A stretch of DNA of 64,000 nt from Flavobacterium amniphilum (GTDB lineage Bacteria; Bacteroidota; Bacteroidia; Flavobacteriales; Flavobacteriaceae): assembly GCF_023634845.1 (NCBI RefSeq), contig NZ_JAMLJL010000002.1, forward strand, positions 186,001 to 250,000, read 5' to 3'. Position numbers and translations under genes: made by a program. The notes under the pieces were generated by a model that saw nothing but the letters and a program-made list of their open reading frames with translations, was not told where the DNA came from and searched no databases. Position 1 is the stretch's first letter, and each line of letters begins with the position of its first letter. Below, piece after piece: positions 1,918-64,000 of the stretch.

Positions 1918-3408
1918 ATGAAAAATAGTATCTATAAATCCATTGGAGCTTTCTCTTTCGTCCTGCTTTCCTGGGGAGTCATCAGCAGTATGCAAAGGAA
2001 AGAAGAATATACCAAAATACCGGTTGCCGACAATACCTGTGATTGCTACTCGAGTTCTTCCCTGTTCAACATTCCCATTACGTTCAACAATCAGGTTCCG
2101 GGCGATTTACAATCGTTCAGCAATCAGTCACAGGCCGATTGTTTTGCCTGGCAGGAATTCATTTCGTTAAACTGGCCCACAAACGGCAATAATTTTGGTG
2201 ATCCTTATGATTACTCTCTTGTTTCCTGGGAAAAGTATATGCCCGAGCAGGTTTTATTCCAGCCGAACGGTGCACCGCCTCCAGCTTGGGGAACTTTGGT
2301 TTCTCCCGAATATGCAAAGAAGTTCAAAACACAGCGGATGGTGTACAGCAACACCGAAACCAAACTCCTGACATTCGCAGCTAAATTTGGTGAAACCGAT
2401 ACCATCAGAGGCTTCAGTCCGGATCAGGCAGCACCTTTCGGAAAACCCAACTGGCTGGGAGCCCAAAACAGTACTAATGTCTGGTATGAAATCATGCTTA
2501 ATAAAGACTATTATGATTTTGTCGTTCAAAACGGTTATTACAATGCCATTAACCAACATACAGCCACACAGAATAAAATTCCGATTAATTTTCCACAGGG
2601 TGTTTACAACGGCGCAGTAGGTGCCATTGAGTTAAAAGCTGCCTGGATGGAAGTCGACAATATCAAATCGGCAAAGTGGGCACGTTACAAATTATCCAAA
2701 GCCATCGTTATGGATGCCACTACGGGAAAATTGCGTACTACAACTGTCGCACTCGTTGGTTTACACATTTTGCACAAAACGACCAACCAGCCAACGTGGG
2801 TTTGGGCTACATTTGAACAAATTGACAATGTTCCCAATACTCCTAACGATACGCCTCCTCCTTACGGTTATAATTTTTACAGTGCTAATTGTACACCTAA
2901 ACAGGTAACCCTGAGTAATGGTAAACAGGTTACGGTAAGCTGCACGGCCAACACTTCTCCTCCTTACTATCTAAAAGATGGAACGCCGGTTCCTATTCAG
3001 CTGACGCGTGTGAACAGTATTGATCCGGAAGATGCCGCACCTATCAATTTAAAAATGCAAACCAATATCAAAAAGTTTTATCCTAATTCGGTGTTCCAGT
3101 ACTACCAGTTGGTCGATGTTATCTGGTCACAAATATTACAGCCGGATCCAACCACACCGATACAGGCTCCACGCAACATCAACAATTCATCGATGGTGAG
3201 CGGGCGTAGCATTGTAGCCAACAGTACCATGGAAAGTTATGTGCAGAATAAAAATACCTGCACCAGCTGTCATGTATACAGTACGATTGCATCTTACAGT
3301 CAGGATACCATCAATAACAATGTTTTCGGGGATTTCAGTTTTGCGATTTCCAAAGCAGAATACCCTTCTACTTCAAAAACTTCAGCGAAAAAGAAGAAAA
3401 AAGGTTAA
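1918..3408 (+). CDS. Secreted protein with a single CxxCH haem-type motif
   Basis: The 496-residue product starts with a signal-like segment (residues 8-25, hydrophobic, after KNSIYK). A CTSCH motif of the c-type cytochrome form lies near the C-terminus (about residues 446-450), and the chain ends in a lysine-rich tail. The rest resembles no domain I can name; it is aromatic-rich, and the Cys pair at about residues 41-43 could form a disulfide. The motif suggests covalent haem and export to the periplasm or cell surface. A single CxxCH without a clear distal Met ligand is weak evidence of a true cytochrome. The gene follows the first gene on the same strand and ends in a terminator at 3469. 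Confidence 0.8.
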   Translation: MKNSIYKSIGAFSFVLLSWGVISSMQRKEEYTKIPVADNTCDCYSSSSLFNIPITFNNQVPGDLQSFSNQSQADCFAWQEFISLNWPTNGNNFGDPYDYSLVSWEKYMPEQVLFQPNGAPPPAWGTLVSPEYAKKFKTQRMVYSNTETKLLTFAAKFGETDTIRGFSPDQAAPFGKPNWLGAQNSTNVWYEIMLNKDYYDFVVQNGYYNAINQHTATQNKIPINFPQGVYNGAVGAIELKAAWMEVDNIKSAKWARYKLSKAIVMDATTGKLRTTTVALVGLHILHKTTNQPTWVWATFEQIDNVPNTPNDTPPPYGYNFYSANCTPKQVTLSNGKQVTVSCTANTSPPYYLKDGTPVPIQLTRVNSIDPEDAAPINLKMQTNIKKFYPNSVFQYYQLVDVIWSQILQPDPTTPIQAPRNINNSSMVSGRSIVANSTMESYVQNKNTCTSCHVYSTIASYSQDTINNNVFGDFSFAISKAEYPSTSKTSAKKKKKG

Positions 3409-3468
3409 ACGATTAGACTTCTCAGATTATTAGAAAATCCTTTTAAGTCTCTATTTATTTTCAAAACG

Positions 3469-3497
3469 GAAAAAGCGCCATAATGGCGCTTTTTTAT
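3469..3497 (+). terminator. Rho-independent terminator
   Basis: AAAAAGCGCCA, a TAA loop and TGGCGCTTTTTT form a strong GC-containing stem ending in a T run, downstream of the CxxCH protein gene. With its A and T flanks it could work in both directions, also ending the ExbD-like cluster. Confidence 0.85.
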
Positions 3498-3527
3498 TAG
3501 ATTATTAGATTTTCAGATTGTTCGATT

Positions 3528-10928: not shown

Positions 10929-11987
10929 TTATTTATAAAGTATCTCCCTCATGGCTATTAACGTTTGGGTTCCTTTATCATAATCCGGAAAATCCTGAAG
11001 CTGCGAATCAGGATAAGCCGCTTCGATGGTTCGTATCAGATCTTCCGCTTTTTGCAACAGTTCATCATACTCCATTTCACCGGCTTTGATGGAAAGCAGT
11101 TCGCCTCTGTTTCCTACACGGATATTTAATTTACCTTCAGTCAGGATTTGCTCCGCCGATTGCAGCAAGCGTACCGTATGCATCATGTTCTTACTGTCGT
11201 AATTTTTCCCGTGCTGTTGGTTCATATTGTAACGGTCATCGTTGCGTTTGACAACCCAGTCCCAATACTCTCTGTACTCTTTACAATACACTGAATACCC
11301 TTCCAGGTTACAGCTCAGGTAAGCGCGTTCTTTTTCTCCCTTTGGTATGGAAGACAACTGCAACTCGTTTGATTCATTCGTTTTGACGATACCACGGTAA
11401 CCCAATGTCGCACCGGCATCATAAAACAACGCAAACATATTTTTGGAATGGGGCATGTTCATCAATCCGCACTGATCCTGATCCAATTGATTTGCTTCCA
11501 GCCATTTCACTAACGGCACACTGTCATACCCCTCGAGTATAAAACAAAACTCCAACAGGCTTTTGCGCTCCTTCTCCATGGGGTTCACAATCTTCTTTTT
11601 GAGTCCGCGTGCTTTCTTGATCTGCGTCATGGCATACCCCGCAAACGAATCCTTGCAGAGCTTCGACAGGAAATCTTCCAACTTCAGGTTTTCCATCAGC
11701 GGATGTCTGTACGACACACAATCCTCGGGCGTTGCGAGTATTTCGAGTATATTCGGATTGTTCTTCAGAAGCAGTTCCACAAAGCGCCCTAATTCGTAGT
11801 ACACTTCATCATTCGTTTCATTACTGACCTGTGGTATGTAATCGAGTCCGAAGAATTTTTCTTTCGGTAAATAGAAAACGCCTTTGATATCGGTATCTGA
11901 CGCTGGTGTGTCCAGTCCAAAAGATTTACTTCCGGATATTACTTCGAATAGTATGAGATTATTTTTTTTTAAATCCTGTATCGTCAT
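10929..11987 (-). CDS. RlaP/COG3541-type nucleotidyltransferase
   Basis: The 352-residue product has the polymerase-beta-fold nucleotidyltransferase signature near its N-terminus: G19-S20, then D31 and D33 within SGSKSFGLDTPASDTDIKG. This form belongs to the RNA-ligase-associated nucleotidyltransferases (RlaP, PF10127, COG3541). Family members are proposed to act on RNA ends, but a defined substrate is not established as far as I know. The gene has its own promoter with the palindrome at 12031-12048, shared with the RNA-repair locus more than 40 kb away. Its 3' end touches a palindrome array. Confidence 0.85.
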   Translation of the reverse strand: MTIQDLKKNNLILFEVISGSKSFGLDTPASDTDIKGVFYLPKEKFFGLDYIPQVSNETNDEVYYELGRFVELLLKNNPNILEILATPEDCVSYRHPLMENLKLEDFLSKLCKDSFAGYAMTQIKKARGLKKKIVNPMEKERKSLLEFCFILEGYDSVPLVKWLEANQLDQDQCGLMNMPHSKNMFALFYDAGATLGYRGIVKTNESNELQLSSIPKGEKERAYLSCNLEGYSVYCKEYREYWDWVVKRNDDRYNMNQQHGKNYDSKNMMHTVRLLQSAEQILTEGKLNIRVGNRGELLSIKAGEMEYDELLQKAEDLIRTIEAAYPDSQLQDFPDYDKGTQTLIAMREILYK

Positions 11988-19584: not shown

Positions 19585-21882
19585 TTAAGGTTTAGTTTTT
19601 ATTAAATCCAACTCTTCCTGCATTTTATCTATTTTTTTCTGTAGAATATCTGCTCTTGAAAAATCCATAACAACCTCGTTATACATTTCTTTCAACTTAT
19701 ATTTCATCAATGGTTCATCAATTGATTGAATTAAATTATAATGATTTTTAAATGATTTATTACTCTTAATGTCAACAATTTCCTTTGATTTTATTTTCTT
19801 AATTTTATTCTCAATCTTTGTTCTTTTTAAAGAGTCTTTCTCATTACTTAATTCTAAAAGTTGCTCTTTTAAATCTGATAATTTATTTAGCCAAGTAATT
19901 GTACCATTTATTTTTTCTTTTGCATAGTTTCCTATTAATCCATCTCCAATAAAAAAACTATCAGCCAGTAAATCAGTAATATTCGCACCAAAAGTGTTCA
20001 TTTTTTTATAATCTTCAGGCTTCCCATTATTCAAAAATAAAATATTTTGCTTTGGAATATCAGAAAGAATAAATGGTGAATGGGTAATGAAAAGGATATT
20101 AAGATAATGTTCACTTAAATTTATAAGTCTTAAAGAGTCTAATAATTCATTTATAAAACATTTTTGAAAATCGGGGTGGGCATATAATTCTATTTCATCA
20201 AAAATTACATTTATATTTTTATATGATACCAAATCTGTAGCTTTTTGCATTTCATTAGGCAATGAGATATTATCTGGTTGATTTTTTACCGAAGTAATAT
20301 TTCTTATATGATAAATTACTGAATGTAGGCTAAATATTTTCTGTTTTTCTCCTGAACTTAGATTTGAAAAATTATTATCACTGATTTTATCTTCGAAATA
20401 ATAGTTAATTTTAAAAAAAGGTGGTAATGAACAATCTGTACCGAATTTATCAAGATAATCTCTATTAAAATCTTTATTAAGTGATATTTTGTCATATATG
20501 CTAAGTATCTTTTTTTGAGATAATAAATATGAAGTATTTATCCATTCATAAACTTTATCAACCTCTATTAGCTTATCTTCAACATCCTCTCTATCAAAGT
20601 AACAATACATGACAAAAAACAATGTTTGTCTGAATTTCTCTGTCAAATGTGAATTGTCTCTATATAATGTTTTTAAATAACTTTCAAGTATTTTATTATT
20701 TACTATTTTAAATTGGTAAACTCTTTCATTTTCTATTTCTAAAAAATCAAACTCCTCAAAGCATTTCTTATAAGCATTAAATTTTTGATGGAAAGTCATT
20801 TTTTTCAACTTAAGCAACAAATAATCAATTGCATAATTGCGATAAAAGTTATCTACATATTGAGTTGTATCTTCTTCAATTTGAAAAATTTGAAAAATTA
20901 CACCCAATATATTTATCTTTTCTTGTTCACTATTAAGTAACCTTATATCTCTACCATTAATTTCTGTCCATTTAAATTTTAAATAGTCTAATTCAATGCC
21001 TACATACTTAATCATTTTATCTTTCTGAATTGTACGTAATTTTTCTTCTTGCAGAATATTTACTAAAAATCGTGACTCGGCAAGATACTTTTCACTATTA
21101 ATGTCAATATTCCCTTTTTCTCTATAAGGATTAATAACAGCTGGTAATTGATAGCCATCATTCTTATGAAAAACCCCTTTTATCCATTCACCTATTTCAT
21201 TAGTATTAAATCCATAATGAGAATAATTAATTACAACCGAATAAAATAAATTTTCTAATAACTCCTTTACTATAGCTGGTACTTTTTCTTGATTTGATTT
21301 TTTATTTTCCGATTCAACTATTGATACATATGCAGATAAATTATTTTTACCAATTTGTTTTTTTATGTTAACAACAGCACCATTTAATTCAACGCATTGA
21401 ATTATCTTCTCTTCTTCTAAACTATTTTGATAGTAAATCTCAACTTTTAATTCATTTAAATCTGAATTTATACTAGTCTTAAACTTTTTGATATTCTTTT
21501 CGAATTCATTTTTATCTAATTCATCATCCCCTGAATCATATAATTCTTCTGGCTTAAAAAAATTAGGATTCACTATTAATGAAGTTTTGAAAATGCTCGC
21601 TATAAGTAACTCAATTAACGCGCTTTTCCCACTCCCATTTTTCCCAACAATAGCAGAAATATTAATGTTTTCCCCGTAAAAATTTTCCGGAACTGTGGGT
21701 GTATGTTTTATATTTTTTACTTCTATATAATTTTCACTACCAAAACTTTCAATAGGATTATTTTCAGCATCCAGAAAATCATAATCATTATAAAATTTAT
21801 AAATTCTGTTTTCTTCTAAATTCTTTAAAAATTTACGCTTACAGCGATCAAGTGGTCTTATAGCTAATAGTTTAAAACTCAT
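19585..21882 (-). CDS. ABC/AAA-type ATPase, Septu PtuA-like
   Basis: The 765-residue product has Walker A GKNGSGKS (residues 80-87) near the N-terminus, a long insertion, an ABC signature NLSSGEKQK, and Walker [17 protein letters not shown] followed by [11 protein letters not shown]. This is the layout of OLD/SMC-like ATPases that guard toxic nucleases. It is longer than the PtuA proteins I remember, mainly in the middle, and ends in a lysine/glutamate-rich coiled-coil-like tail. The start lies 11 nt after the nucleotidyltransferase stop and the HNH gene follows 13 nt later, so the three genes probably form one transcript. Confidence 0.82.
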
Positions 21883-21893
21883 TATATTTTCAA

Positions 21894-22646
21894 TTACTTT
21901 AATAAATCCCTAAAAACCCCATCTAACTCCTCGCCCATTTTCTTTCCGGAACGCAAAGAAGAAGCATGCGCCATATTATACGCCAGAGTCTCCTGCAAAT
22001 AATCCGTGATGAGGGATTCCTTCGGATGGAGGTAGCTTTCGTTTTGTTGTGACTTGATTTGCATTAACTCTTTTATCTTTTCCTGTATGGCTGGTGGTGC
22101 TATCGGCAGCAATTCATTGAAATCGACCGGTGGGAAACTGTCGCGGTCCACGATCCACTTGCCGGCGAGTGCCGTTCGCAACGCATAGAAATAGCTTTTG
22201 AGTTTGACTGCATCCTGGGTGCAAACGTCCATGAAATTTTTGGTGGTACCTATGTAGTGGTGCATGCAGGCGATGGGCGAAAAACAATCGGAAGCCACGG
22301 CACGTAATTTTGCCATGGCTTCCGTGTTTTCATAATACACTACCGGACTGTACAGCCATTCCAACAAAGAGGCATTGGATTTTGCCAATTGTTTGACGGA
22401 CTTCCCCAAGTCCCAGCCGGAACCGTCGAGATCATCGGCGGTCATAAACTCGATAACATCAGGCTTGTCCCAAAGTGACAAATAATAATCCAGACCGTGT
22501 TTGTAAATAAACCGTATGTCGTAGTCACTATCTGGAGAGGCAAATCCCCACGCTCTGCTCCCGGACTCTACCGCATACAGTATTTCGACGCTCTTTTCCC
22601 GCTCTGTTTCTTTGAGTTTATCGAGTATGTTTTGCATGTCTTCCAA
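21894..22646 (-). CDS. RlaP/COG3541-type nucleotidyltransferase, second copy
   Basis: The 250-residue product shows [20 protein letters not shown]29-S30 and the metal-binding D41/D43 of the polymerase-beta fold, in the form typical of RNA-ligase-associated RlaP proteins. It is shorter than the paralogue at 10929-11987. Its promoter region carries the shared palindrome at 22766-22784. The ATPase gene follows after 11 nt, so the repair-type nucleotidyltransferase heads the Septu-like operon. Its more GC-rich codons differ clearly from the two genes behind it. Confidence 0.85.
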
Positions 22647-52948: not shown

Positions 52949-53941
52949 TTAATCAGCAGTGTCATCAACTCTTAGAACGGGTTGTACTACGGAATTATAT
53001 TTTTCGTAAGGAAACTTCAACCCTATTGTACTCCATCCCGAACTGGTGGATAAAATTACGTCTTCCCAATACGGAATGGGAATATAGGCTTTTCTTCTTT
53101 CTTCATACCATTTGTCCAGCTCAGCTTCTCTCGCCAAAATTGCTTCTTCGGTTTCGGTTTCTTCGGTTTCTTCGCTTTCATCTTCGGTACAGTCTGAATC
53201 TTCATTGCTTTTTTTAATCGCTTTAATCGCCTTGGCAACTGCAAACGGAGCCGGTTTTTCATCTGCATCCTCATCATCATACTCCCTTTCGTCTAATCCC
53301 AGATCCCAACGCAATTCATTAATTAAATGCTCTCTTAAATTTAAACTATACAATAGGGTATCAAATCCATACATGGATATAACATGATTGCATTTTTGGG
53401 TGGGTTCCGAAATGAGGTACCGGTGTGAATTGACCGGAATCAGGATGCTTGCCTTTTCCATCCATTTTTCCATGACGGCAATACATTCTGCTTCTGTTTC
53501 GGGTCTTGTTCCCCATGCCTTCAGCCAACTTGGCTGGATACTTGAGAAAACATCAAACTTAAGATGTTCCAAAGGATTGGCAAAACGCTCTTTGATCAAT
53601 TCTTCATCGCGCCAATTATGAAATAAATGATTTTCTCTTAATGTAATTTCATTTGTTTCGAAATCTTCCTCTTCAAAGAAATCGCATTTGTCCACTCTGT
53701 GGAGTATTTTTAAAAAACTTTTAAAATCATCCGGAAATTTAATTCCCCATTTGATTTCCAAAGCATTTACTTCTTCATCAGAAAGCGGATCAACCCATTT
53801 GGCTCCTTCAAAAAGATCATGCTTTTGGCTCCACCAGTTTCCGTCTTTTTTACTTTCGGAAAGATTGGCCCATCTTTTTTCAGTGGTTTCTTTTACCCAG
53901 TATAAAAACTCTTCAAAATTATTTGGTATTATAGTGTTCAT
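52949..53941 (-). CDS. SMI1/KNR4 (SUKH) family protein
   Basis: The 330-residue product contains a SUKH core: DPLSDEEVNALEIKWGIKFPDDFKSFLKIL is the signature for SMI1/KNR4 proteins (about residues 52-82). A later acidic region (DEDADEKPAPF; DCTEDESEETEETETEEAI) precedes a final segment with IPIPYWEDVILST. SUKH proteins often act as immunity proteins against nuclease toxins; others have housekeeping roles. No toxin gene is adjacent. Confidence 0.88.
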   Translation of the reverse strand: MNTIIPNNFEEFLYWVKETTEKRWANLSESKKDGNWWSQKHDLFEGAKWVDPLSDEEVNALEIKWGIKFPDDFKSFLKILHRVDKCDFFEEEDFETNEITLRENHLFHNWRDEELIKERFANPLEHLKFDVFSSIQPSWLKAWGTRPETEAECIAVMEKWMEKASILIPVNSHRYLISEPTQKCNHVISMYGFDTLLYSLNLREHLINELRWDLGLDEREYDDEDADEKPAPFAVAKAIKAIKKSNEDSDCTEDESEETEETETEEAILAREAELDKWYEERRKAYIPIPYWEDVILSTSSGWSTIGLKFPYEKYNSVVQPVLRVDDTAD

Positions 53942-54084: not shown

Positions 54085-55095
54085 TCACTCACAAAAAAAA
54101 GGCTTTCCGAATTCCGGTCTGATACGCTTCCAGATTTCGTGGTCGTAGCTTTTATTGTCGAGCATCAGGAAGAGCACTGCCGAATGCTTACACGTCAGAA
54201 AATAAAAAGCGGTTTCTTTTCTCGTTTCCAATACTTTGAAATCTTTTTTACATTGGTCTTCAATGGTTTTGAAATCGGATTCCAATTTTGCCTGAATGCC
54301 TTTCACCCAATTGAAAAACTCATCGGGAACCAGTTCCAGAATTTCCGATAAGGGCTCATTGTTTTTCAGTTTCTCCCAGATATCCACACTGGACACCTGT
54401 GTGATGATACGGTGCAGACGCATATACTCTTCAAACTTTACCTTCAGACGGAAATTGTTCGCAAAACGGATCACAAACCCTTCCTTGTTTTCAGTTTCCA
54501 GATTTTTCAGCAACTGAATGTCTTTGATTCCGTCGTATTTTTCAACCAATGGGAATCCGATATCTTCCAATGCAAATTCGTTCCCGGTTTGCGTATCGAT
54601 TACCGCCAGTAATACCAAAGCCGAAGTAGCGCCATAATCAACTACGATCCTATTCTCAGGGTAAATGATTTCAAACAGGTAGGTTCTCGACTGGTCGATC
54701 TTCTCCCAACAGTCTTTGTACTGACCATGCAGCATTTCGGTCGCTTTCAATGCCTGTTCGCTCGTAAAAGAACCACGGCTTGCCATAAACGGTGTTCCGT
54801 TGGCCCAGTATAAAATGCCGAGTGAACCGTCCATTTTGTCATAAACTTCAAAAGAAGTATCGGGAATTTCCAATTCCGGTTTTTCGCCCAGATTGAAAAA
54901 TTTCGGAAACGGACGTGCCACCACATTCATTTCACTGTCAAGGATCAAACCACGGCAGGTAATCGTGATGTCGTTCCATAAACGGTCAAACTGGGCATCC
55001 TGTGTATAGTTGTAGATGTACAGATCATAATCAGGATGTTTGTTCACCCTGATATAATTCTGTGCTATCATTTCCTGTAATAATTGTGTATTCAT
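54085..55095 (-). CDS. T4 Rnl1-like RNA ligase
   Basis: The 336-residue product has the nucleotidyltransferase motifs of T4 Rnl1-type RNA ligases: K87-M-D-G-S (the AMP-accepting Lys in YDKMDGSLGILYW), TITCRGLILDSE upstream, TYLFEIIYPENR (motif III), EGFVIRF (motif IV) and RLKVKFEEY (motif V). It joins 3'-OH to 5'-phosphate RNA ends using ATP, as in repair of cut tRNA anticodon loops. It has its own palindrome promoter at 55110-55150. It is the last gene of the locus; the nucleotidyltransferase-like gene ends 44 nt upstream. Confidence 0.92.
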   Translation of the reverse strand: MNTQLLQEMIAQNYIRVNKHPDYDLYIYNYTQDAQFDRLWNDITITCRGLILDSEMNVVARPFPKFFNLGEKPELEIPDTSFEVYDKMDGSLGILYWANGTPFMASRGSFTSEQALKATEMLHGQYKDCWEKIDQSRTYLFEIIYPENRIVVDYGATSALVLLAVIDTQTGNEFALEDIGFPLVEKYDGIKDIQLLKNLETENKEGFVIRFANNFRLKVKFEEYMRLHRIITQVSSVDIWEKLKNNEPLSEILELVPDEFFNWVKGIQAKLESDFKTIEDQCKKDFKVLETRKETAFYFLTCKHSAVLFLMLDNKSYDHEIWKRIRPEFGKPFFCE

Positions 55096-55109: not shown

Positions 55110-55150
55110 GTATGCAAATGTTCCAAAGAACCTGCGCAATTAATTTACGC
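55110..55150 (-). promoter_or_regulatory. RNA-repair palindrome site 3 with -7 box
   Basis: On the minus strand GCGTAAATTAATTGCGCA is followed by 14 nt and TTTG in AACATTTG, then CATAC. It lies between the end of the nucleotidyltransferase-like gene and the start of the Rnl1-like ligase, 38 nt before the ligase ATG. Confidence 0.75.
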
Positions 55151-55874
55151 GGTCACTTTGATAGGCATACTCTTCAGTATTTTTCATTTTCGGAATTTCT
55201 TCTTTCAGTACTGCAACCAATTGGTTCACATACGTTTGAATCACTTCCATGTTGGTTTCTGGTTCACGCAACAGAAACGGTTTCAGCTCCGGAAAAAATG
55301 CCATGATTTCTTTTTTGGTGTACAATTCGGTTCCGGATGCCAAAGCTAAAGTTTGTCCTAATTGGAACGCCATCATCTTTTTTAAACCGGTTGCATCGGT
55401 TCCTTTTCCGAAATCATTCAGTTGCAGTAAATTAATTTCAGCCAGTGTTTTAACTTTCAAATGGACATCTCCTTTCAGAGCTGCTTTCACGACGGTACGG
55501 AATTCGGTTTTGGAAACAAAAGACAGCAACATGCGAAGCGAACGGATCAATTTCAGATGTACGTCCCTTTTCAATGTCTTTGTAATTTCATTCCCGAAAT
55601 CCTGATGATGAAGATCATACGTGGCCAGCACCGAATTATTCAATTCATCGGCCGTTCCTTTATACACGCTAACAATGCATCCGTTGGAACAAACCGCAAG
55701 GTTCGCATTGATTACTTTATCCTGGTATTCTTCCGCCAGTTGTTCTTTTAAGGAATTGCTGAGCGTCAGTTTTTCCAGAATGGTTTCCGGCATCGCATCA
55801 ATCAGGAACACCACATCATAATCAACTGAATCGGCCGAACCAAAAAAAAGGTATGTTACGTTAGTATTTTTCAT
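55140..55874 (-). CDS. Nucleotidyltransferase-like protein A
   Basis: The 244-residue product has G12-S13, then D15, D18 and D20 in FGSADSVDYDVVFLID, a compact form of the polymerase-beta-fold GS...DxD signature. It is paralogous to the product of 55861-56628, with the same motif at the same positions, a shared ATYDLHHQ-like segment and similar length. Its start overlaps that gene's end by 14 nt. RNA-repair operons commonly include nucleotidyltransferases of uncertain substrate beside ligases. The spacing between GS and DxD is shorter than in RlaP, so this may be a distinct branch. Confidence 0.75.
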   Translation of the reverse strand: MKNTNVTYLFFGSADSVDYDVVFLIDAMPETILEKLTLSNSLKEQLAEEYQDKVINANLAVCSNGCIVSVYKGTADELNNSVLATYDLHHQDFGNEITKTLKRDVHLKLIRSLRMLLSFVSKTEFRTVVKAALKGDVHLKVKTLAEINLLQLNDFGKGTDATGLKKMMAFQLGQTLALASGTELYTKKEIMAFFPELKPFLLREPETNMEVIQTYVNQLVAVLKEEIPKMKNTEEYAYQSDRVN

Positions 55875-56628
55875 TCAGCATATCGATTACTTCATTATTG
55901 CAATACAATTTTCCGTTTTCAGAACGGTAGGAACCTAATTTTTCAATTACAGCCAACCATTCAGCAATCCGTTTTTGAATGTTTTGTTTATCAACATCAC
56001 CAATAGCTTCCCGGTAAATAAACGGATGCATTTCAGGCCAATAAGCCACCGCATCGGTTTTGGTATAAATTTCAATTCCATCACGTATCAAAGCCATATT
56101 CTGGACCACATAAAAAGCAATTATTTTCCAGATATCACTGTCATTTGCATTTTTTTGGTTGAAATGATCCAGAAGCATGAAATCAATTTTCCGGATCACA
56201 GTGATCTTATCGTTAAAATCATGAATCCCTTTTAAAACCGGTTTGATTTCTTTCCGGTAATCCGTCCGCGTCAGGAAAGTGAGCACTGTTCTCACCGCTT
56301 TATAAACCGAAAGTGTTTTGTTTCTTTTTTGCAACCGGTCAATTGGCAACGGAAATAATTGTTCATGCAAATGATACGTTTGGAACAAAGCATTGTTCAG
56401 GGAATCGATCCATGATTTGGTGTAAATCGTATCCACCATTATACCTTCTTCAATAACCGCCAGTGTTGCATTCCAGTCGAAGTTATAAGTTTGCTGCAAA
56501 CTCAGGACAAACCTTTTGCGTTCTTCCTGTGTGGAAGGCATTTCCTCTTTCGGAATAACAATAATCACATCTTTATCCGTAGAATCAGATGAACCATAAA
56601 AATAATAAGGATATGGTATTGCATTCAT
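55861..56628 (-). CDS. Nucleotidyltransferase-like protein B
   Basis: The 255-residue product has G12-S13, D15, D18 and D20 in YGSSDSTDKDVIIVIP, the same layout as protein A. Downstream helices include LSVYKAVRTVLTFLTRTDYR, matching LKLIRSLRMLLSFVSKTEFR in A. A heterodimer is plausible because the two genes overlap. A palindrome promoter (56642-56682) lies 14 nt before its start and probably drives both genes. Confidence 0.75.
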   Translation of the reverse strand: MNAIPYPYYFYGSSDSTDKDVIIVIPKEEMPSTQEERKRFVLSLQQTYNFDWNATLAVIEEGIMVDTIYTKSWIDSLNNALFQTYHLHEQLFPLPIDRLQKRNKTLSVYKAVRTVLTFLTRTDYRKEIKPVLKGIHDFNDKITVIRKIDFMLLDHFNQKNANDSDIWKIIAFYVVQNMALIRDGIEIYTKTDAVAYWPEMHPFIYREAIGDVDKQNIQKRIAEWLAVIEKLGSYRSENGKLYCNNEVIDMLNEKY

Positions 56629-56683: not shown

Positions 56684-57211
56684 TTATTTTTTGGCTTCAA
56701 GTAACAAAGCGACACCATACGGTTTAAACTGTCCGGTTTCACACCATTCCTTACGAATTGTTTTCTCATCGTGTTTCACGAGTCCGACAGCCGGGTCGGC
56801 GACATAAAATGTATTTCCTTCGATAGCATAGAGCACAACAAAATGATTATCATTCCAATGCAACATTGCCGGCAACGGTGCTTCCCTCAATTCTTTGATT
56901 TTCAGTTTAACCCCAAGAGTCCTGAATCCGAAATGCTCGGCGGCTTCACTTAAATCAAACAGATTTGTCCCTTCCGCTTTATCCAGTTTTGCAACCGTAT
57001 TGATAGAATCCCTCGGAATCTTTTTGCCGTAATATTCAAAAATCATCTGCAGGCAGGTTGGTCCGCATTCGGGTGCATTGCTTTGCAGATGAAAAGGAAA
57101 ATCACCGTTTGGTTTTTTACCATTATAGAATTTGGCACCAATACTAAATCCGCTGATCAAAATCAGGTAAATAATATTTTTCACGATAAATCCTTTATTA
57201 AAAATTCCCAT
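56684..57211 (-). CDS. Stand-alone C39-type cysteine peptidase
   Basis: The 175-residue product has an N-terminal membrane helix (about residues 11-27) and a C39 peptidase fold: APECGPTCLQMIF with catalytic C49, LHWNDNHFVVLYA with the catalytic His, and VADPAVG with the Asp. C39 enzymes cut double-glycine leaders and are usually fused to ABC transporters; here it stands alone. The start overlaps the kinase-phosphatase gene by 14 nt, so it belongs to the Hen1 operon. Its link to RNA repair is unclear. The double-glycine peptide at 23204 is a conceivable substrate, but 33 kb away. Confidence 0.88.
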   Translation of the reverse strand: MGIFNKGFIVKNIIYLILISGFSIGAKFYNGKKPNGDFPFHLQSNAPECGPTCLQMIFEYYGKKIPRDSINTVAKLDKAEGTNLFDLSEAAEHFGFRTLGVKLKIKELREAPLPAMLHWNDNHFVVLYAIEGNTFYVADPAVGLVKHDEKTIRKEWCETGQFKPYGVALLLEAKK

Positions 57212-58100
57212 AATACACCTGAAAACAAGGCAGTTTTAAATCGTTACGCCACATATCCACCACTTGGTTACGGTCATCGAGAATGAATTCGATCTGGTAT
57301 TTTCCGCCAATTTCCGCGTCGAAGATTTCCCTTTTGATAATGCTGTCTTTTCGGCTGTCACCGGTAGCACGCATCAGCAATGCGTCATATCCGATGTTGT
57401 ACTGTTCCAGGAAACGCAGCGTTGGTTCACGGTGTTTCTCTTCACGTCCCGACAGTAAAATAATGGCAAACCCGAGATCTTTGTAATTTTTCAAAACATT
57501 CGCCACGGGTTCGTTCAGTAAATCCTTATCGCAGTTGGCCGCATCAAAAGGATTTCGTCCGTTCATTAAAGCCAGCGTTCCGTCAAGATCACAAATCAAA
57601 GCCTTCGGCAATTGTGCATCCTGCTCGGCATATTCAAGATCTTTTCTTCTGATTCTTTTCACCGGCTGGAAATCGAAATTATTCTTCAGACTCTGCAATT
57701 GGTGGTACATCGCATCAATCACCTTCTTCGGGACATTACGGTCACGTTTGGCATTACGTTCGTACAATTCTTCCAATGGCAGATCGAACAGTTTGAATTC
57801 TATATCCGCCAGTTCCTGATACTCACCGATATTATTTTTGATGTATTCCTTTTTTGTATTACAACTGTCCAATACGACGTTCCATCCACTGGAAAGCAAA
57901 GCCTTCACTTGTTCGTATACCATTTTCGAAATCATTTTTTCTGCCTCAGGCTCCATCGCTTCCTGAAATTGTGAAAAACGGATTTCATCACGGCTGATAC
58001 GGAATGTTTTCGGTTCCGATTTTACGATCCATTCGGCATATGTACTTTTCCCCGAAGCCGGGCAACCTATCAATATTGTCAGTTTGGGTGTCTTTTTCAT
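57198..58100 (-). CDS. T4 Pnkp-type polynucleotide 5'-kinase/3'-phosphatase
   Basis: The 300-residue product has the size and order of phage T4 polynucleotide kinase: an N-terminal kinase with P-loop GCPASGKST (12-20) and RISRDEIR, and a C-terminal DxDxT phosphatase with D171-L-D173-G-T, LLSGREEKHR and DDRNQVVDMWR. It converts 2',3'-cyclic phosphate or 3'-phosphate and 5'-OH ends into 3'-OH and 5'-phosphate, ready for ligation. It starts 8 nt after the ligase gene and overlaps the C39 gene. Confidence 0.95.
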   Translation of the reverse strand: MKKTPKLTILIGCPASGKSTYAEWIVKSEPKTFRISRDEIRFSQFQEAMEPEAEKMISKMVYEQVKALLSSGWNVVLDSCNTKKEYIKNNIGEYQELADIEFKLFDLPLEELYERNAKRDRNVPKKVIDAMYHQLQSLKNNFDFQPVKRIRRKDLEYAEQDAQLPKALICDLDGTLALMNGRNPFDAANCDKDLLNEPVANVLKNYKDLGFAIILLSGREEKHREPTLRFLEQYNIGYDALLMRATGDSRKDSIIKREIFDAEIGGKYQIEFILDDRNQVVDMWRNDLKLPCFQVYYGNF

Positions 58101-58108
58101 TTTTCTTA

Positions 58109-59293
58109 TTATAATCTTGGATCCAATTTCTTCTCTATCTCTTCATTATTAATCCGCTTCAAAAGTAAGAGTTTCATTAGATAATTTTCTTCATTTAAAT
58201 TTTTATAGGGAATTTCCAGCATCTGACGGTTGATTTCCCAGTCATTGATGGATTGCTCCAGTTTCTTTTTGATATTCCGTTTGTCCAGATAATGCTCAAA
58301 ATTCGTATCAAAATTAACACCGTAAATCATCGTCAGGTATTTGTTGTTCCTGATTTTGAAACAAGGCGGCAAACCTTTCACATAACTTTTCACGGTTTTA
58401 ATCATGATCCCTTCCTCGTTTTGCGCGGTAAGCATTTCCATGAAAGCTTTGATTTTATTTACCTCATCTTCTTCATTTTCAGGAGTGAATCGCAAATGCA
58501 AAAAAGCATCATCATTAACGGAAGCATAGGTTAAATTAGAATTTGGAATCACTTCTTTACCTGAATCATAAACGATCTTCAGGATGTTGAACGGCTTGAA
58601 ATGGATTTCCCCTTCCCCACCGAAAATTTCAATCTGTTCCCTGAAAATATCCAGTGACTTCGCCTGTGTTTCCAAATCATACAACTTGAATTGTCCCAAT
58701 GCTTCATATTGTCTGACGATATGGGATTTGTGTTTCGATTTGAATTCTTTACCGGAAAGATTCTTTTTATCATCCACATAAGCTGTATAATCTGCTTTTT
58801 GTTTCACTCTGCTGATTTTCGCATACAAATCACTATTCTGCAAATAAGCATTGTGGGTGTCCAACGCTTCATAATAAGCACAATATTCCTTTTCGATCAG
58901 ATTGCCTCCCATAATTTTCCAGGGAAGCATTTCCGAAGCGATGATCATGGCATCGAAACCGGGATGCATTTCCAGCATTTTCTGATGGAGACCAACGATA
59001 CTTTTTTGGGCAGCTTCGGTATCGATATGTTCTATCCGGTAACCGTTTCTCGAAACAAAATAGGTTTCCTCCAATTTGTTTTTCAGGTAAATGGTACAAT
59101 AGGACCCCATGTATTTCTTTTGGACAACCAATTCGGTTTCGCCACGGCTCAGGAAATAGTTCACGGCCTGACGGATACTTTCAATTTCATTGTCCGGCAG
59201 ATATTTCGGAGCCGGTGAAATCGTAGGTGAAAATTCATTGACTTTATTTTTACAAAACCATTCAATCCGGTTTTTTACTCTTAGCTCTAACAT
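58109..59293 (-). CDS. Pnkp-type RNA ligase domain as a separate protein
   Basis: The 394-residue product has VVQKKYMGSYCTIYL with the nucleotide-binding Lys K60 in KYMGS, FVSRNGYR (motif Ia), EGIMIK at 294-299 (motif IV), and FKIRNNKYLTMIYG at 312-325 (motif V). KxMGS and the KxR-x-x-x-YL-x-x-IYG block are features of the ligase module of bacterial Pnkp, normally fused behind kinase and phosphatase modules. Here it is a free protein encoded between the Hen1-type methylase (12 nt) and the T4-type kinase-phosphatase (8 nt), so Pnkp is split. A second ligase, Rnl1-like, sits in the same locus. Confidence 0.88.
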   Translation of the reverse strand: MLELRVKNRIEWFCKNKVNEFSPTISPAPKYLPDNEIESIRQAVNYFLSRGETELVVQKKYMGSYCTIYLKNKLEETYFVSRNGYRIEHIDTEAAQKSIVGLHQKMLEMHPGFDAMIIASEMLPWKIMGGNLIEKEYCAYYEALDTHNAYLQNSDLYAKISRVKQKADYTAYVDDKKNLSGKEFKSKHKSHIVRQYEALGQFKLYDLETQAKSLDIFREQIEIFGGEGEIHFKPFNILKIVYDSGKEVIPNSNLTYASVNDDAFLHLRFTPENEEDEVNKIKAFMEMLTAQNEEGIMIKTVKSYVKGLPPCFKIRNNKYLTMIYGVNFDTNFEHYLDKRNIKKKLEQSINDWEINRQMLEIPYKNLNEENYLMKLLLLKRINNEEIEKKLDPRL

Positions 59294-59305: not shown

Positions 59306-60583
59306 TTAATTGGCATAAACAATCATGGCACTCGTTGGATGAACTCCGTTGACACAATCCCCGATTCCCGAATATTCCATCCGGTTAGGGAAAATTTCGC
59401 CGACAAAAGTGACAAACTCTTCCCTATTGAATTCAAAATCATGGTCGTCATGGCGAAATTCTTCGGTCATTTCATAGTTCACGTTGAAATCGGAATTGGG
59501 TGTTGTAATGAACAATTGTGTGAACGATACATTCTCTTTGATCCAAACCAATAGTTTTTTAGCTTCTTCCAATGTATTATGCTCGATTACTTCACTCAAA
59601 ATCACCTGTCCGCTAAATCCTTTCAGGCTGTCCACATCCGAAACCCAGTTCAGGTTATCCACACGCTCGATTTCCATGATCTTATTGGCCGTTGCTTCAT
59701 AATCAACTTCGTCATATGCCCAGTAATCATTCCGGTAGCCTTTTTTCATCAGGGATCTGAAGTACTGCATTTCCCCGCAGCCAAAATCCAGCACCGGTTC
59801 GTCATGACTGATTTTATCACAGATGAATTCCTTACGTGACTGGTGCGTATCGGTGAACAAAAACTGTATTCTATTATCGAAGTACGCTTCCAGTTGGGGC
59901 TTGAACTGTTCAAACTGTTTGGGTGAACGCATCAGCCTTTTAATAAACAGATAGTACACAAAATACGGTACGTTTTTGATGTTCGTCAGATTCGTTACGT
60001 GTTTCTGGATGAAATAATCATCTATGAAGGTATGCACCGAATATTTATTGGTAAAATGGCAGAACAAAGCCACCAGTGAAAACTTTTGAAACGCTTCCCG
60101 TACCGAATTCCCTTCTACAAACAGTGTATAATTATTTCCTCTTTTGGGAGTCAGTGTGATTCCGTCGATATACTTTGACAACAAGAAGTTTCCGTTCTTA
60201 TACCATCCGGAATCCAGAAAGAATGTGGGTACTTCAATTGTTGCAGGAACAGTATCCACATCAGCATAGGTTTTATCCAGCCAGGAAATTACGGTCGCAT
60301 TCAATTGTGTATTTTCTTTATACAAATGGTTGAAAAATTCGGTACCGATGTTCAAAGCCAGCAGCGGACTGCAGTAACTCTGGTAATCGATTGGATTTCC
60401 TTCTTCGGGCATGTAACTGTGCTTGGTATCCTGAAACACACAGTGGTATTCATTTGCACTGACACAGTTACCAATTAACACGCCGTCTTTCAGGGATGTG
60501 CAGTACAAACCTTCGTCGGTATTTGGGTTCTTGTGTAATATATCCAAAAAGTAAGGATTTTTGGACTTCAAAATCAGTATCAT
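59306..60583 (-). CDS. hen1: Hen1-type RNA 3'-terminal 2'-O-methyltransferase
   Basis: The 425-residue product has a unique N-terminal half and a C-terminal methyltransferase: VLDFGCG (264-270, SAM motif I), EVIEH (331-335), TPNSDFNVNY and FRHDDHDFEFNREEF (377-390). E-x-x-E-H plus the later His is the metal site of Hen1 enzymes that methylate the 2'-OH of the 3'-end before sealing, so the repaired RNA resists the same cut. It starts the operon ligase, kinase-phosphatase, C39 peptidase. Two palindrome sites lie upstream. Confidence 0.92.
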   Translation of the reverse strand: MILILKSKNPYFLDILHKNPNTDEGLYCTSLKDGVLIGNCVSANEYHCVFQDTKHSYMPEEGNPIDYQSYCSPLLALNIGTEFFNHLYKENTQLNATVISWLDKTYADVDTVPATIEVPTFFLDSGWYKNGNFLLSKYIDGITLTPKRGNNYTLFVEGNSVREAFQKFSLVALFCHFTNKYSVHTFIDDYFIQKHVTNLTNIKNVPYFVYYLFIKRLMRSPKQFEQFKPQLEAYFDNRIQFLFTDTHQSRKEFICDKISHDEPVLDFGCGEMQYFRSLMKKGYRNDYWAYDEVDYEATANKIMEIERVDNLNWVSDVDSLKGFSGQVILSEVIEHNTLEEAKKLLVWIKENVSFTQLFITTPNSDFNVNYEMTEEFRHDDHDFEFNREEFVTFVGEIFPNRMEYSGIGDCVNGVHPTSAMIVYAN

Positions 60584-60600: not shown

Positions 60601-60641
60601 CTTTGACAAATGTCTTATGCCGTTGCGCAATTATTTTGCGT
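60601..60641 (-). promoter_or_regulatory. RNA-repair palindrome site 5 with -7 box
   Basis: On the minus strand ACGCAAAATAATTGCGCA is followed by 13 nt and TTTG in GACATTTG. It lies 18 nt before the Hen1 start and is its likely promoter. Confidence 0.78.
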
Positions 60642-62184: not shown

Positions 62185-62287
62185 TTCCGGTAAATATTAG
62201 CTTAAAATTAAAACGGTTCTTACAATATTAAACAAATATTATAAGAACCGATAATTGAACAATACAATTGTTTCTTTAAAAAATTAA

Positions 62288-62356
62288 AAAGAGGCAATAA
62301 TGATAAACAGCTGGGCTAAGTTTTGATCGAAGTAACTGTTTAAAACGGCACTCTTT
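62288..62356 (-). ncRNA. Y-RNA-like gene E (short form)
   Basis: On the minus strand: outer stem AAAGAG/CTCTTT, 5' internal TGCCGTTT, inner stem TAAACAG/CTGTTTA, loop opening TTACTTCG, and a 3' internal strand ATTATTGC. The 69-nt unit has a loop of about 25 nt and no tRNA-like arms, so it would be a minimal Y RNA of Ro-binding stem only. It is the last of five tandem units. Confidence 0.72.
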
Positions 62357-62358
62357 GG

Positions 62359-62431
62359 TATAAGAGCAATAATTCAGTGGAGCTTGTTATCAATTTTGGT
62401 ACGAAGTAACTCCATTGCACGGCATCTTATA
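62359..62431 (-). ncRNA. Y-RNA-like gene D (short form)
   Basis: On the minus strand: outer stem TATAAGA/TCTTATA, 5' internal TGCCGT, inner stem TGGAG/CTCCA extended by CA/TG across one mismatch, loop opening TTACTTCG, and a 3' internal strand ATTATTGC. The 73-nt unit has no tRNA-like arms. It begins 3 nt after unit E in plus-strand coordinates. Confidence 0.75.
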
Positions 62432-62436
62432 TATTT

Positions 62437-62566
62437 GAAGAAGTAAAAAACGTAAAGTGTATTTTTAACCGGGGCATCTCGTTGCCGGAATCGAACCGGA
62501 CAGTCATGCCAATTTTACGATTCCCCTTTACATTGGACGAAGTAACACTTCACTACGACATTCTTC
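62437..62566 (-). ncRNA. Y-RNA-like gene C (with T-arm module)
   Basis: On the minus strand: outer stem GAAGAA/TTCTTC, 5' internal TGTCGTA, inner stem GTGAAGTGT/ACACTTTAC (9 bp with one G-U), then TACTTCG. The apical part has a CCAAT/ATTGG hairpin and a GGCAT/ATGCC stem enclosing a T-arm-like hairpin CCGG-TTCGATT-CCGG. No clear D-arm. The small basic-protein frame at 62528 overlaps its 5' end. Confidence 0.78.
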
Positions 62567-62788
62567 TTTTTCTTTCCATTGTTTGTTTCTGAATTTCTTC
62601 CAGTTACGCTGGCGGTTGCTTAGTGTTGAATTTGTGGTTTCCCATCCGTGTGGAAAACACCGGCTGCATCCCTGCAAATCACCGTAGCGTATTCTTGAAA
62701 TTTGTATGTTAGACATTTTTGAAGGAAAATTAATCCCTCCGATTTCATTTTTTCCCAGTGCTTTATAAAAGCGTTTAAATTTTCTCAT
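62528..62788 (-). CDS. Small basic CxxC protein among Y-RNA genes
   Basis: The 86-residue frame starts MRKFKRFYKALGKNEIGGIN, contains GCSRCFPHGWET and a basic NRQRNWKKFRNKQWK stretch. The composition looks like a nucleic acid-binding small protein with a possible CxxC metal or turn motif. Its last 13 codons run into the 5' strand of Y-RNA-like unit C, so either the C-terminus or the RNA boundary is imprecise. No family recognised with confidence. Confidence 0.5.
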   Translation of the reverse strand: MRKFKRFYKALGKNEIGGINFPSKMSNIQISRIRYGDLQGCSRCFPHGWETTNSTLSNRQRNWKKFRNKQWKEKEECRSEVLLRPM

Positions 62789-62864
62789 GATGTTTCTATT
62801 GAATTATACCTCAATAGAATGCACCTTTTCGTGTTGTTTTATAATTTTTCATATTCTTTAAAAT

Positions 62865-62987
62865 TAATCAGGGCAACAAGTTAAAAAAGAGACTCTTCCG
62901 TAGTCTTACCATTAGACGATACACCAGGAATCGAACCAGGATTGACGGTCCTTAAACGAAGTAACTCTTCTTTACGGCACCTGATTA
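62865..62987 (-). ncRNA. Y-RNA-like gene B (with D- and T-arm)
   Basis: On the minus strand: outer stem TAATCAGG/CCTGATTA (8 bp), 5' internal TGCCGT, inner stem AAAGAAGAG/CTCTTTTTT (9 bp with one G-U), loop opening TTACTTCG, and a tRNA-like apical part. That part has CCGT/ACGG as the anticodon-stem equivalent, T-arm CCTGG-TTCGATT-CCTGG (one U-U), then D-arm GTCT-AATGGTA-AGAC. The T-arm comes before the D-arm, a permuted order. There is almost no acceptor stem between them. Confidence 0.82.
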
Positions 62988-62992
62988 TTATA

Positions 62993-63134
62993 ACAAGGCA
63001 AAAAGCAATAAGTGAAATTTTATGCGCTCTACCACTGAGCTACTCTCCCATTTTTATTTTTTTGTGGAAGAGACGGGATTCGAACCCGCGACCTCATCGT
63101 CCCAAACGAAGTAACACTTATCTACGGCACTTGT
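62993..63134 (-). ncRNA. Y-RNA-like gene A with circularly permuted tRNA module
   Basis: On the minus strand: outer stem ACAAG/CTTGT, 5' internal TGCCGTA, inner stem GATAAGTG/CACTTATT (8 bp, one G-U), loop opening TTACTTCG. The apical part is a permuted tRNA: T-arm GCGGG-TTCGAAT-CCCGT (63073-63089), 3' acceptor strand CTCTTCC (63066-63072), a 16-nt linker, 5' acceptor strand GGGAGAG (63043-63049), TA, then D-arm GCTC-AGTGGTA-GAGC (63026-63040). The acceptor stem pairs 7 of 7 with one G-U. Known bacterial Y RNAs carry a tRNA-like module. The promoter with palindrome site 7 lies just upstream. Confidence 0.88.
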
Positions 63135-63143
63135 TTTTATTAT

Positions 63144-63183
63144 ACTACAAATTTATTTTTACCCTGCGCAATTATTTTACGCA
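63144..63183 (-). promoter_or_regulatory. RNA-repair palindrome site 7: promoter of Y-RNA array
   Basis: On the minus strand TGCGTAAAATAATTGCGCA is followed by 13 nt and TTTG in TAAATTTG, a perfect Bacteroidetes -7 box. Transcription should start near 63141, about 7 nt before the outer stem of Y-RNA-like unit A. Confidence 0.82.
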
Positions 63184-63262: not shown

Positions 63263-63510
63263 TAATAATTAATATCTAAAAGATTATAATTAATATCTAA
63301 AAGGTTATAATTAATATCTAAAAGGCTATAATTAATATCTAAAAGATTATAATTAATATCTAAAAGGCTATAATTAATACCTAAAAGATTATAATTAATA
63401 TCTAAAAGGCTATAATTAATACCTAAAAGATTATAATTAATACCTAAAAGATTATAATTAATATCTAAAAGGCTATAATTAATACCTAAAAGGCTATAAT
63501 TAATATCTAA
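63263..63510. repeat. 21-bp tandem repeat, about 11 copies
   Basis: Unit ATAATTAATATCTAAAAGATT with variants at two places (ATATCT/ATACCT; AGATT/AGGCT/AGGTT). The period of 21 bp equals two helical turns with phased A/T tracts, so the DNA may be curved. It lies between the stop of the Ro60-like gene and the Y-RNA promoter. TTACTATTCACTAA repeats follow to 63560. It has no spacer diversity, so it is not a CRISPR array. Confidence 0.9.
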
Positions 63511-63563
63511 TCACTAATTACTATTCACTAATTACTATTCACTAATTACTATTCACTAATCCC

Positions 63564-64000
63564 TTACAAAACAATTCTGTTTATATATTGCAATGCCGAA
63601 GTTTTATCTTCCAATGCATGCAACACATCAAACACTTTGTCTGACCAACCTGCAATCAGGTACACATCATTTTGTTTAATATCCAACGGAACCTGACCGT
63701 AACCAGCCAAATCGAACAAATACAACTTGGCATTTGGTGCCATCGCTTTATAACGGTTCCAGGAATTTTCAAACGAATGTGTTGTGTTGTTACTGTTCCA
63801 CATCTGAACATCGGTAAACAACATGACTTTATCCACGATTTCGTTTCGTTTGATTAAATCTTCGATTACCAGATAACCATTGGTTGCATAACCTACTTCA
63901 CCTTCACGGCGGTAAAATTCCTGGACATTGGCCAAAACATTACGTTTCGACATATTGATTACTTTCCATCGGTCACCAAACATACCACTGATCACATTTT
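63564..64000 (-). CDS. rsr: Ro60/Rsr (TROVE) protein, C-terminal vWA part, cut by window edge
   Basis: The frame is open to the right edge, so only the last 145 residues are visible. They match the C-terminal von Willebrand A domain of Ro60-family proteins: VDKVMLFTDVQMWNSN, YKAMAPNAKLYLFDLAGYGQVPLDI and VYLIAGWSDKVFDVL. Ro60 is a ring-shaped RNA chaperone that binds Y RNAs and misfolded or broken RNA. It lies directly upstream of the five Y-RNA-like genes on the same strand, the arrangement expected of a bacterial Ro/Y RNA unit. The GTG at 63995 is not the true start. Confidence 0.88.
   Translation of the reverse strand, partial: NVISGMFGDRWKVINMSKRNVLANVQEFYRREGEVGYATNGYLVIEDLIKRNEIVDKVMLFTDVQMWNSNNTTHSFENSWNRYKAMAPNAKLYLFDLAGYGQVPLDIKQNDVYLIAGWSDKVFDVLHALEDKTSALQYINRIVL

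Follow-up and report, generated by a model that had tools for sequence, protein, structure and literature searches.

To our knowledge, few species account for the bacterial Y RNAs described so far, which mostly come singly or in pairs. YrlA belongs to an RNA-repair neighbourhood, the rsr-yrlBA-rtcBA operon (PMC7790460), is a substrate of DusA and TruB (PMC8394870), and has a tRNA domain proposed to act as a competitive inhibitor in Salmonella (PMC7790460). Also described are a Deinococcus Y RNA that tethers Rsr to PNPase (PMC7790460, PMC4726728), a vertebrate Ro60 site in the helix of the lower stem, where a single nucleotide bulges from one strand and a bulge faces it on the other (PMC4726728), and a Pnkp1-Rnl-Hen1 complex that repairs ribotoxin-cleaved tRNA in vitro (PMC4411300). 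Our literature search, which missed core papers on bacterial Y RNAs, found no Y-RNA arrays in Bacteroidota. The array described below lies in a 64,000-nt stretch of Flavobacterium amniphilum DNA, which we call the window.

Five units downstream of a Ro60 gene

A preliminary description of this DNA had placed a Ro60 homologue upstream of a row of Y-RNA-like genes. The 3' part of a Ro60 gene (TROVE plus vWA, by reading frame and Pfam) does lie there, at 63564..64000 on the minus strand, and runs past the window end. The full reading frame (L004:2565-4127) encodes 520 aa with Pfam matches to TROVE (4.1e-34, which bears the homology out) and vWA_Ro60 (1.6e-6). The protein also matches the NCBIfam family Rsr at 2.9e-7 and 29 bits, the cut-off being 900, and its residues 29-507 align to PDB 9l5y, a 'TROVE domain-containing protein'. 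Read along the minus strand, the order is Ro60, units A and B, a small protein, units C, D and E, and a terminator; past the terminator come an unknown 475-aa protein, Hen1, a PNKP-type ligase and a kinase-phosphatase, followed by a C39-like peptidase, two unknowns and a T4 Rnl1-type ligase. Ro60 and the array are separated by a 21-bp tandem repeat of 11.7 copies (63265-63510), next to which lies a 14-bp repeat (63507-63560).

We called units by the motifs TGYCGT and TTACTTCG, with at most one mismatch in each, together with an outer and an inner stem. Run on both strands of the window, the caller recovered all five minus-strand units of shared plan where they had been described (scores 28-38), plus one weak match at 20614 (score 16), a chance hit. 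Unit A (62992..63135, minus strand) joins the Y stem to a circularly permuted tRNA head, with a T arm, a loop-closed acceptor stem and a D arm. Unit B (62865..62987, minus strand) has a likewise permuted head on its Y stem, a T arm and then a D arm, without an acceptor stem. Unit C (62437..62566, minus strand) carries, on a GGGG/CCCC stem, a head that keeps the normal tRNA order, with a D-like stem and a T arm. Two of the five units had been listed as lacking the tRNA-like head; D (62359..62431) and E (62288..62356), also on the minus strand, are real units with short heads on the Y stem. Successive units are 4, 298, 5 and 2 nt apart.

Across 41 loci, 40 with Ro60 and one (L071) without, the caller placed 160 units on the coding strand but a single one on the opposite strand. 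When the 3' side was shuffled, 53% of trials still yielded some call, and scores of at least 25 were reached in 6% of these trials versus 85% of real calls. Among the best 80 of 436 relatives, 79 of the 80 Bacteroidota Ro60 loci hold 2-10 units and 29 hold exactly five, counted without a score threshold and with some genomes shared with the 41 fetched loci; the sole locus without a unit, L221, stops 201 bases past the Ro60 match. Neighbouring units lie a median of 9 nt apart, with gaps of at most 20 nt in 295 of 444 cases. Five units in a row, first thought an unusual expansion, are thus ordinary in the phylum's Ro60 loci, and the array is not a local expansion.

A shared stem and its distribution

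Each unit is laid out as an outer stem, a bulged U, a G-C and a Y-R pair, an internal loop, an inner stem of about 8 bp, TTACTTCG, the head and a return strand. Two details of the preliminary description have to be amended: all five units have the 3' strand that ends in TTGC or TTAC and was assigned to D and E alone, and the 5' and 3' strands, taken to be internal, are partly paired. The TGYCGT and TTRC motifs meet in the G-C pair and a covarying Y-R pair (position 3 of TGYCGT with the R of TTRC) beside the bulged U. Among 505 unique units the Y-R position is C-G in 228, T-A in 209, T-G in 32 and C-A in 3; 469 of the 505 pair, a pairing that the caller does not demand, in units that are related, so that the counts are not independent. 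In the window it is T-A in unit C and C-G in A, B, D and E. Spacing within units is also fixed (15 nt in 431/505, 17 nt in 353/505).

The stem covariation proposed from the window alone is borne out in related genomes, where a loss of pairing without compensating changes would have spoken against it. In 29 short units, all 15 stem pairs show double changes, with a covariation score of 0.874 as against 0.231 in shuffled and 0.15-0.22 in slid alignments; these rows were picked for score and diversity, which favours the count, they came from a caller that requires pairing, the sequences are related and not independent, and two of 31 rows had been dropped because their heads held T arms. Minimum-energy folds recover the Y stems of all five window units; the heads drawn for B and C are absent from them. 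By comparison, the units have the structure of a bacterial Y RNA, with 5' and 3' ends joined in a long stem and, within it, a conserved putative Ro60 site in the form of a bulge or internal loop. The bulged-U element resembles the Ro60 site of Y RNAs, and Ro60 is the predicted docking partner of the shared stem.

In the genus, 17 of 199 genomes have Ro60, and in the phylum 28 of 395 do. The exact motif pair occurs in 5 of 18 genus genomes, the same 5 that carry Ro60. The preliminary description had suggested a covariance-model search, which we ran with a model built from the 29 short units. In the window the model found A-D, and in a whole-genome scan D, E and B; it gave 65.8 bits to unit D and 65.2 bits to unit E, both members of the training set, 55.2 bits to B and 51.4 bits to C. 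It matched 18 of the 395 phylum genomes (the same draw, by handles, as for Ro60), under strict filters with 12 candidates scored per genome; several of these 18, G000 included, had supplied training rows. All 18 are among the 28 Ro60-positive genomes, as expected of RNAs encoded beside a Ro60 orthologue, and none of the 367 Ro60-negative genomes gave a match. Five of the ten Ro60-positive genomes without a match hold units found by the caller (G289, G072, G077, G101, G577). The other five have a distant Ro60 (27-35% identity), and the caller found no units in the three of their loci that were fetched. A looser pattern, TGYCGTN{3,14}GTTACTTCG, matched 51 of 296 genomes and was not used as a count because a reversed control pattern also matched many genomes. 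Separately, 12 of 22 Ro60-bearing viral contigs (L245-L266) have at least one unit call, with seven in L255; host DNA may account for some of these contigs, and chance for single calls.

Against Rfam, of the five units only A resembles YrlA: it spans the whole RF02553 model but at 40.1 bits stays below the cut-off of 69, so the proposed Rfam check fell short. No unit in the window or in 20 further loci reached the gathering score of 69 bits, and all 8 further loci tried gave YrlA matches of 32-42 bits, the best at 42.2. The Y-RNA-like identity first put forward otherwise holds in the computational tests, through matches limited to Ro60-positive genomes, covarying stems and the alignment of unit A.

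RNA-repair neighbours, a common palindrome and a small protein

The genes past the terminator include, all on the minus strand, a Hen1 RNA 3'-end methyltransferase (59306..60583; Pfam Hen1_N 1.5e-64), a PNKP-type RNA ligase or Rnl (58109..59293; PNKP_ligase 8.8e-18), a Pnkp1-like polynucleotide kinase-phosphatase (57198..58100; HAD_PNKP 7.2e-51, AAA_33 2.3e-17) and a T4 Rnl1-type RNA ligase (54085..55095; RNA_lig_T4_1 9.4e-20). Farther off, two RlaP-family nucleotidyltransferases (10929-11987, 21894-22646) each stand behind a copy of the palindrome described below. Within the fetched flanks, Hen1 occurs in 2 of the 80 Ro60 loci drawn as the best of 436 relatives, and RtcB in 27 of these 80 and in 26 of the 41 fetched loci. 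Near the RNA-repair genes we also noted an SMI1/KNR4 (SUKH) family protein (52949-53941, 1.1e-5) and two adjacent, similar-looking proteins without a Pfam family (55140-55874 and 55861-56628, best 0.045).

An operator- and promoter-like palindrome, GCGTAAAATAATTGCGC, lies upstream of the array (63166..63182, minus strand). The pattern GCGYAAAATAAYTGCGC has seven matches in the window with at most two mismatches, where 0.03 are expected; all are on the minus strand and followed by TTTG, and they stand before the array, Hen1 (two, at 60625 and 60738), a 255-aa gene, Rnl1 (55134) and the two RlaP genes. With at most one mismatch the genome holds seven copies, all on one contig between 181925 and 249182. 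Because the array shares the palindrome with the Hen1, RNA-ligase and RlaP genes, it probably belongs to an RNA-repair regulon. Upstream of Ro60 in this genome no copy was found at up to two mismatches. Of 27 Flavobacterium loci, 23 have the palindrome no more than 200 nt upstream of Ro60 and 19 have it no more than 300 nt upstream of the first unit; of 32 Chryseobacterium loci, 3 have it before Ro60 and 0 before the first unit. It was present in 16 of 19 Ro60-positive and 10 of 17 Ro60-negative genomes tested. A WYL/WCX regulator encoded 5.6 kb from Ro60 (L004:9767-10798) is, as a guess, a candidate for the protein that reads the palindrome. Two odd tRNA-like genes outside the window (L163, L164; G000:C12:181126-181326; 31.6 and 38.3 bits) are possibly further tRNA mimics of the palindrome regulon; a copy of the palindrome stands some 600 bases upstream of them, behind a 130-aa frame.

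Just before unit A, where transcription is predicted to start, stands TAAATTTG (63148..63155, minus strand), which fits the Bacteroidota -7 box, TAnnTTTG. This box occurs in 26 of 104 stretches upstream of first units, compared with 2.7 in shuffles; none of the 104 combines it with TTG at the -33 spacing. A sigma-70 promoter scan was rejected (2 found versus 7.1 in shuffles). The 298-nt gap between B and C makes a second promoter before C possible. Past unit E by 37 nt is a predicted intrinsic terminator (62214..62250, minus strand), a 16-bp stem followed by TTTTAATTTT; the scan used a loose criterion and found 1 where shuffles predict 0.8.

Between B and C lies an 86-aa reading frame (62528..62788, minus strand), whose 3' end overlaps unit C and which encodes a small basic protein with the sequence GCSRCFPHG. 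A hairpin, CTATTGA..TCAATAG (62796..62817, minus strand), directly precedes its start codon, and similar hairpins are seen by eye in 12 examined upstream stretches and in L273. Homologues on the Ro60 strand occur in 24 of the 80 loci (best 80 of 436) and in 4 of the 41 fetched loci, this one included, with at least two of the 80 repeating genomes of the 41. In these 28 loci the protein follows at least one unit in 14 and precedes all called units in 14, and the next unit starts no more than 15 nt past its stop codon in 23. We found 11 homologous proteins, with conserved columns. Searches up to E 1 gave no relative in the PDB, the protein matched none of the families in Pfam, NCBIfam or PADLOC, and an AlphaFold2 model, with a mean pLDDT of 59, was set aside. 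Seven of 395 genomes encode the protein, five with Ro60 and two (G088, G503) without, and in one of the five, G166, it lies away from Ro60, so the idea that it is exclusive to Ro60 arrays was rejected. In G503 an RlaP gene follows it. As a side observation, a protein resembling the 55140-55874/55861-56628 pair precedes it in this Ro60-negative genome.

Head types and their possible roles

By a rough pattern classifier, 184 of the 505 unique units have permuted T-then-D heads, 103 short heads, 57 acceptor-anchored heads and 48 T-arm mini heads; 74 others have a T loop, and 39 have long heads that lack one. At least two classes occur together in 78 of the 80 Bacteroidota Ro60 loci (best 80 of 436 relatives). 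A T-arm minihelix takes the place of unit D's short head in L052 and L053 (fourth unit in each) and in L054 (third unit).

A second pattern gave 189 T-then-D heads, of which nine, with the T loop more than 50 nt in, are probably misfiled. If the variable loop is taken to be standard, the base directly following TTACTTCG falls at tRNA position 30-32 in 102 of the 189. The three registers hold 19, 30 and 53 heads, with U33 in 17/19, 21/30 and 47/53; a purine at 37 is less regular (25/53 in the commonest register). By the position of the break, many of these permuted tRNAs are thus opened in or near the anticodon loop. Unit A starts with TTTGGGA, the tRNA-Pro anticodon loop, and the head of unit B looks Gln-like by eye. 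In permuted class A5, 96% of cells pair and all seven acceptor pairs show double changes, in a test that is independent of the caller's pairing and uses 18 heads hand-chosen from 30; unit A was not among the 30, and the 12 dropped, unit B included, were irregular or without a regular acceptor stem. Several of the permuted-head acceptor stems are capped by TTCG, which means that no free acceptor end is encoded. The acceptor-anchored class A6, to which unit C belongs, has normal tRNA order on a GGGG/CCCC stem; in its 11 rows, left after two of 13 heads that looked misfiled were removed, 6 of 17 pairs show double changes, none of them in the GGGG/CCCC stem.

Because one common stem carries different heads, the units likely hand Ro60 different partners during RNA repair. 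We think it somewhat probable that the units are made as one precursor, that their stem docks on Ro60, and that the differing heads tether different RNA-handling partners. A regulated promoter at the palindrome would yield a single precursor ending at the terminator, which would be cut into single Y RNAs; each could then dock on Ro60 through the common stem, and the heads would act as interchangeable adaptors, by analogy with the Deinococcus Y RNA that tethers Rsr to PNPase. The array would be induced together with the RNA-repair enzymes upon tRNA damage.

A different and rather doubtful reading is that the heads are decoys, mimics of tRNA without an intact anticodon arm that occupy tRNA-cleaving toxins or nucleases, with Ro60 merely stabilising and displaying them. 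It fits the position of the array beside Pnkp1-Rnl-Hen1 genes, a system that repairs ribotoxin-cleaved tRNA in vitro (PMC4411300), and the competitive-inhibitor role proposed for the tRNA domain of Salmonella YrlA (PMC7790460). In addition, 52 of the 505 units have an exact anticodon-loop heptamer within their first 20 nt, compared with 20.7 +- 4.4 in shuffled heads, 15 in reversed and 17 in reverse-complement controls; however, permuting the loop letters gives 19.4 +- 10.9 with a maximum of 59 units, so the enrichment is not beyond every null. The anticodon arm, the usual target, is broken in the permuted heads, and most short heads are without a clear anticodon stem, the best match being 14 nt of tRNA-Asp in L114 and L117. 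We accordingly dropped the notion of an anticodon loop in every short head, keeping it only as a lead; CCAAA, as in tRNA-Trp, occurs in 37 of 105 short heads and GTCAC in 4.

It is less likely still that the heads serve mainly in biogenesis, their tRNA features recruiting enzymes of tRNA modification or processing, by which the precursor would be cut and the units stabilised. YrlA is a substrate of DusA and TruB (PMC8394870), the median 9-nt spacing is too tight for separate promoters in most cases, and in L114 a true tRNA stands directly before each of two units; but 103 of the 505 unique units keep the same stem with a short head and without a T loop, so a tRNA head is not needed for a unit to exist. 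In that L114 stretch (3091-3514) the real tRNA-Arg and tRNA-Lys genes stop a few bases before the next Y unit, and the short heads of these units contain tRNA-Ser-like and tRNA-Asp-like anticodon loops. The tRNA-like T and D arms and the 86-aa frame inside the stretch might suggest a decayed cluster of tRNA genes, or a leader acting in cis on the genes downstream; either is highly improbable given that neither ARAGORN nor Rfam at cut-offs finds a canonical tRNA gene in the window, that class A5 combines permuted order with covarying acceptor stems, that the stems covary across the phylum, and that a predicted terminator separates array and downstream genes.

The adaptor reading thus preferred can be widened, tentatively, to a Bacteroidota Ro60 supplied with an interchangeable adaptor set from a palindrome-controlled RNA-damage regulon. 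Polycistronic Y RNAs displaying parts of tRNA (sealed bodies with their opening in the anticodon loop, heads of D and T arms, T-arm minihelices and anticodon-loop-like short heads), together with the new small protein, might let one ring protein sense or intercept many kinds of attack on tRNA. The Ro60-bearing Bacteroidota examined have up to ten Y-type RNAs with a constant stem and swapped heads, and the Flavobacterium arrays carry a promoter-like element common to RNA-repair enzymes. Such a system allows a direct test, with the same Ro60 and stem and different heads; a covariance model is now available for RNAs below the Rfam cut-off, and the small array protein is a candidate new component.

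The array is like YrlA in its Ro60/Rsr neighbourhood, in its long terminal stem, in unit A, which covers model positions 1-114 of 114, and in lying beside RNA-repair genes, as YrlA does in the rsr-yrlBA-rtcBA operon. The permuted order of YrlA (T arm, closed acceptor stem, D arm) recurs in unit A and class A5; it is absent from B, which has no acceptor stem, and from C, D and E. Unlike YrlA, these RNAs come in arrays of 2-10 units with several head types and a near-constant TTACTTCG after the inner stem, and the heads of C, D and E have no match to the YrlA model. The Pnkp1-Rnl-Hen1 system is that of Capnocytophaga gingivalis; next to the array the window has three separate proteins likened to it by kind, and the text of the paper examined (PMC4411300) does not contain the term 'Ro60'. 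The helix of vertebrate Y RNAs is similarly bulged, with a bulged C there and a bulged U here, and we do not claim homology. RYPER of Deinococcus radiodurans (Rsr-PNPase) would follow the same proposed logic, with the stem on Ro60 and the head tethering a partner (PMC7790460, PMC4726728); one tether is described there, whereas the array here offers a set with different heads. Taken with these systems, the sequence comparisons support the array as a new, modular variant of bacterial Y RNAs.
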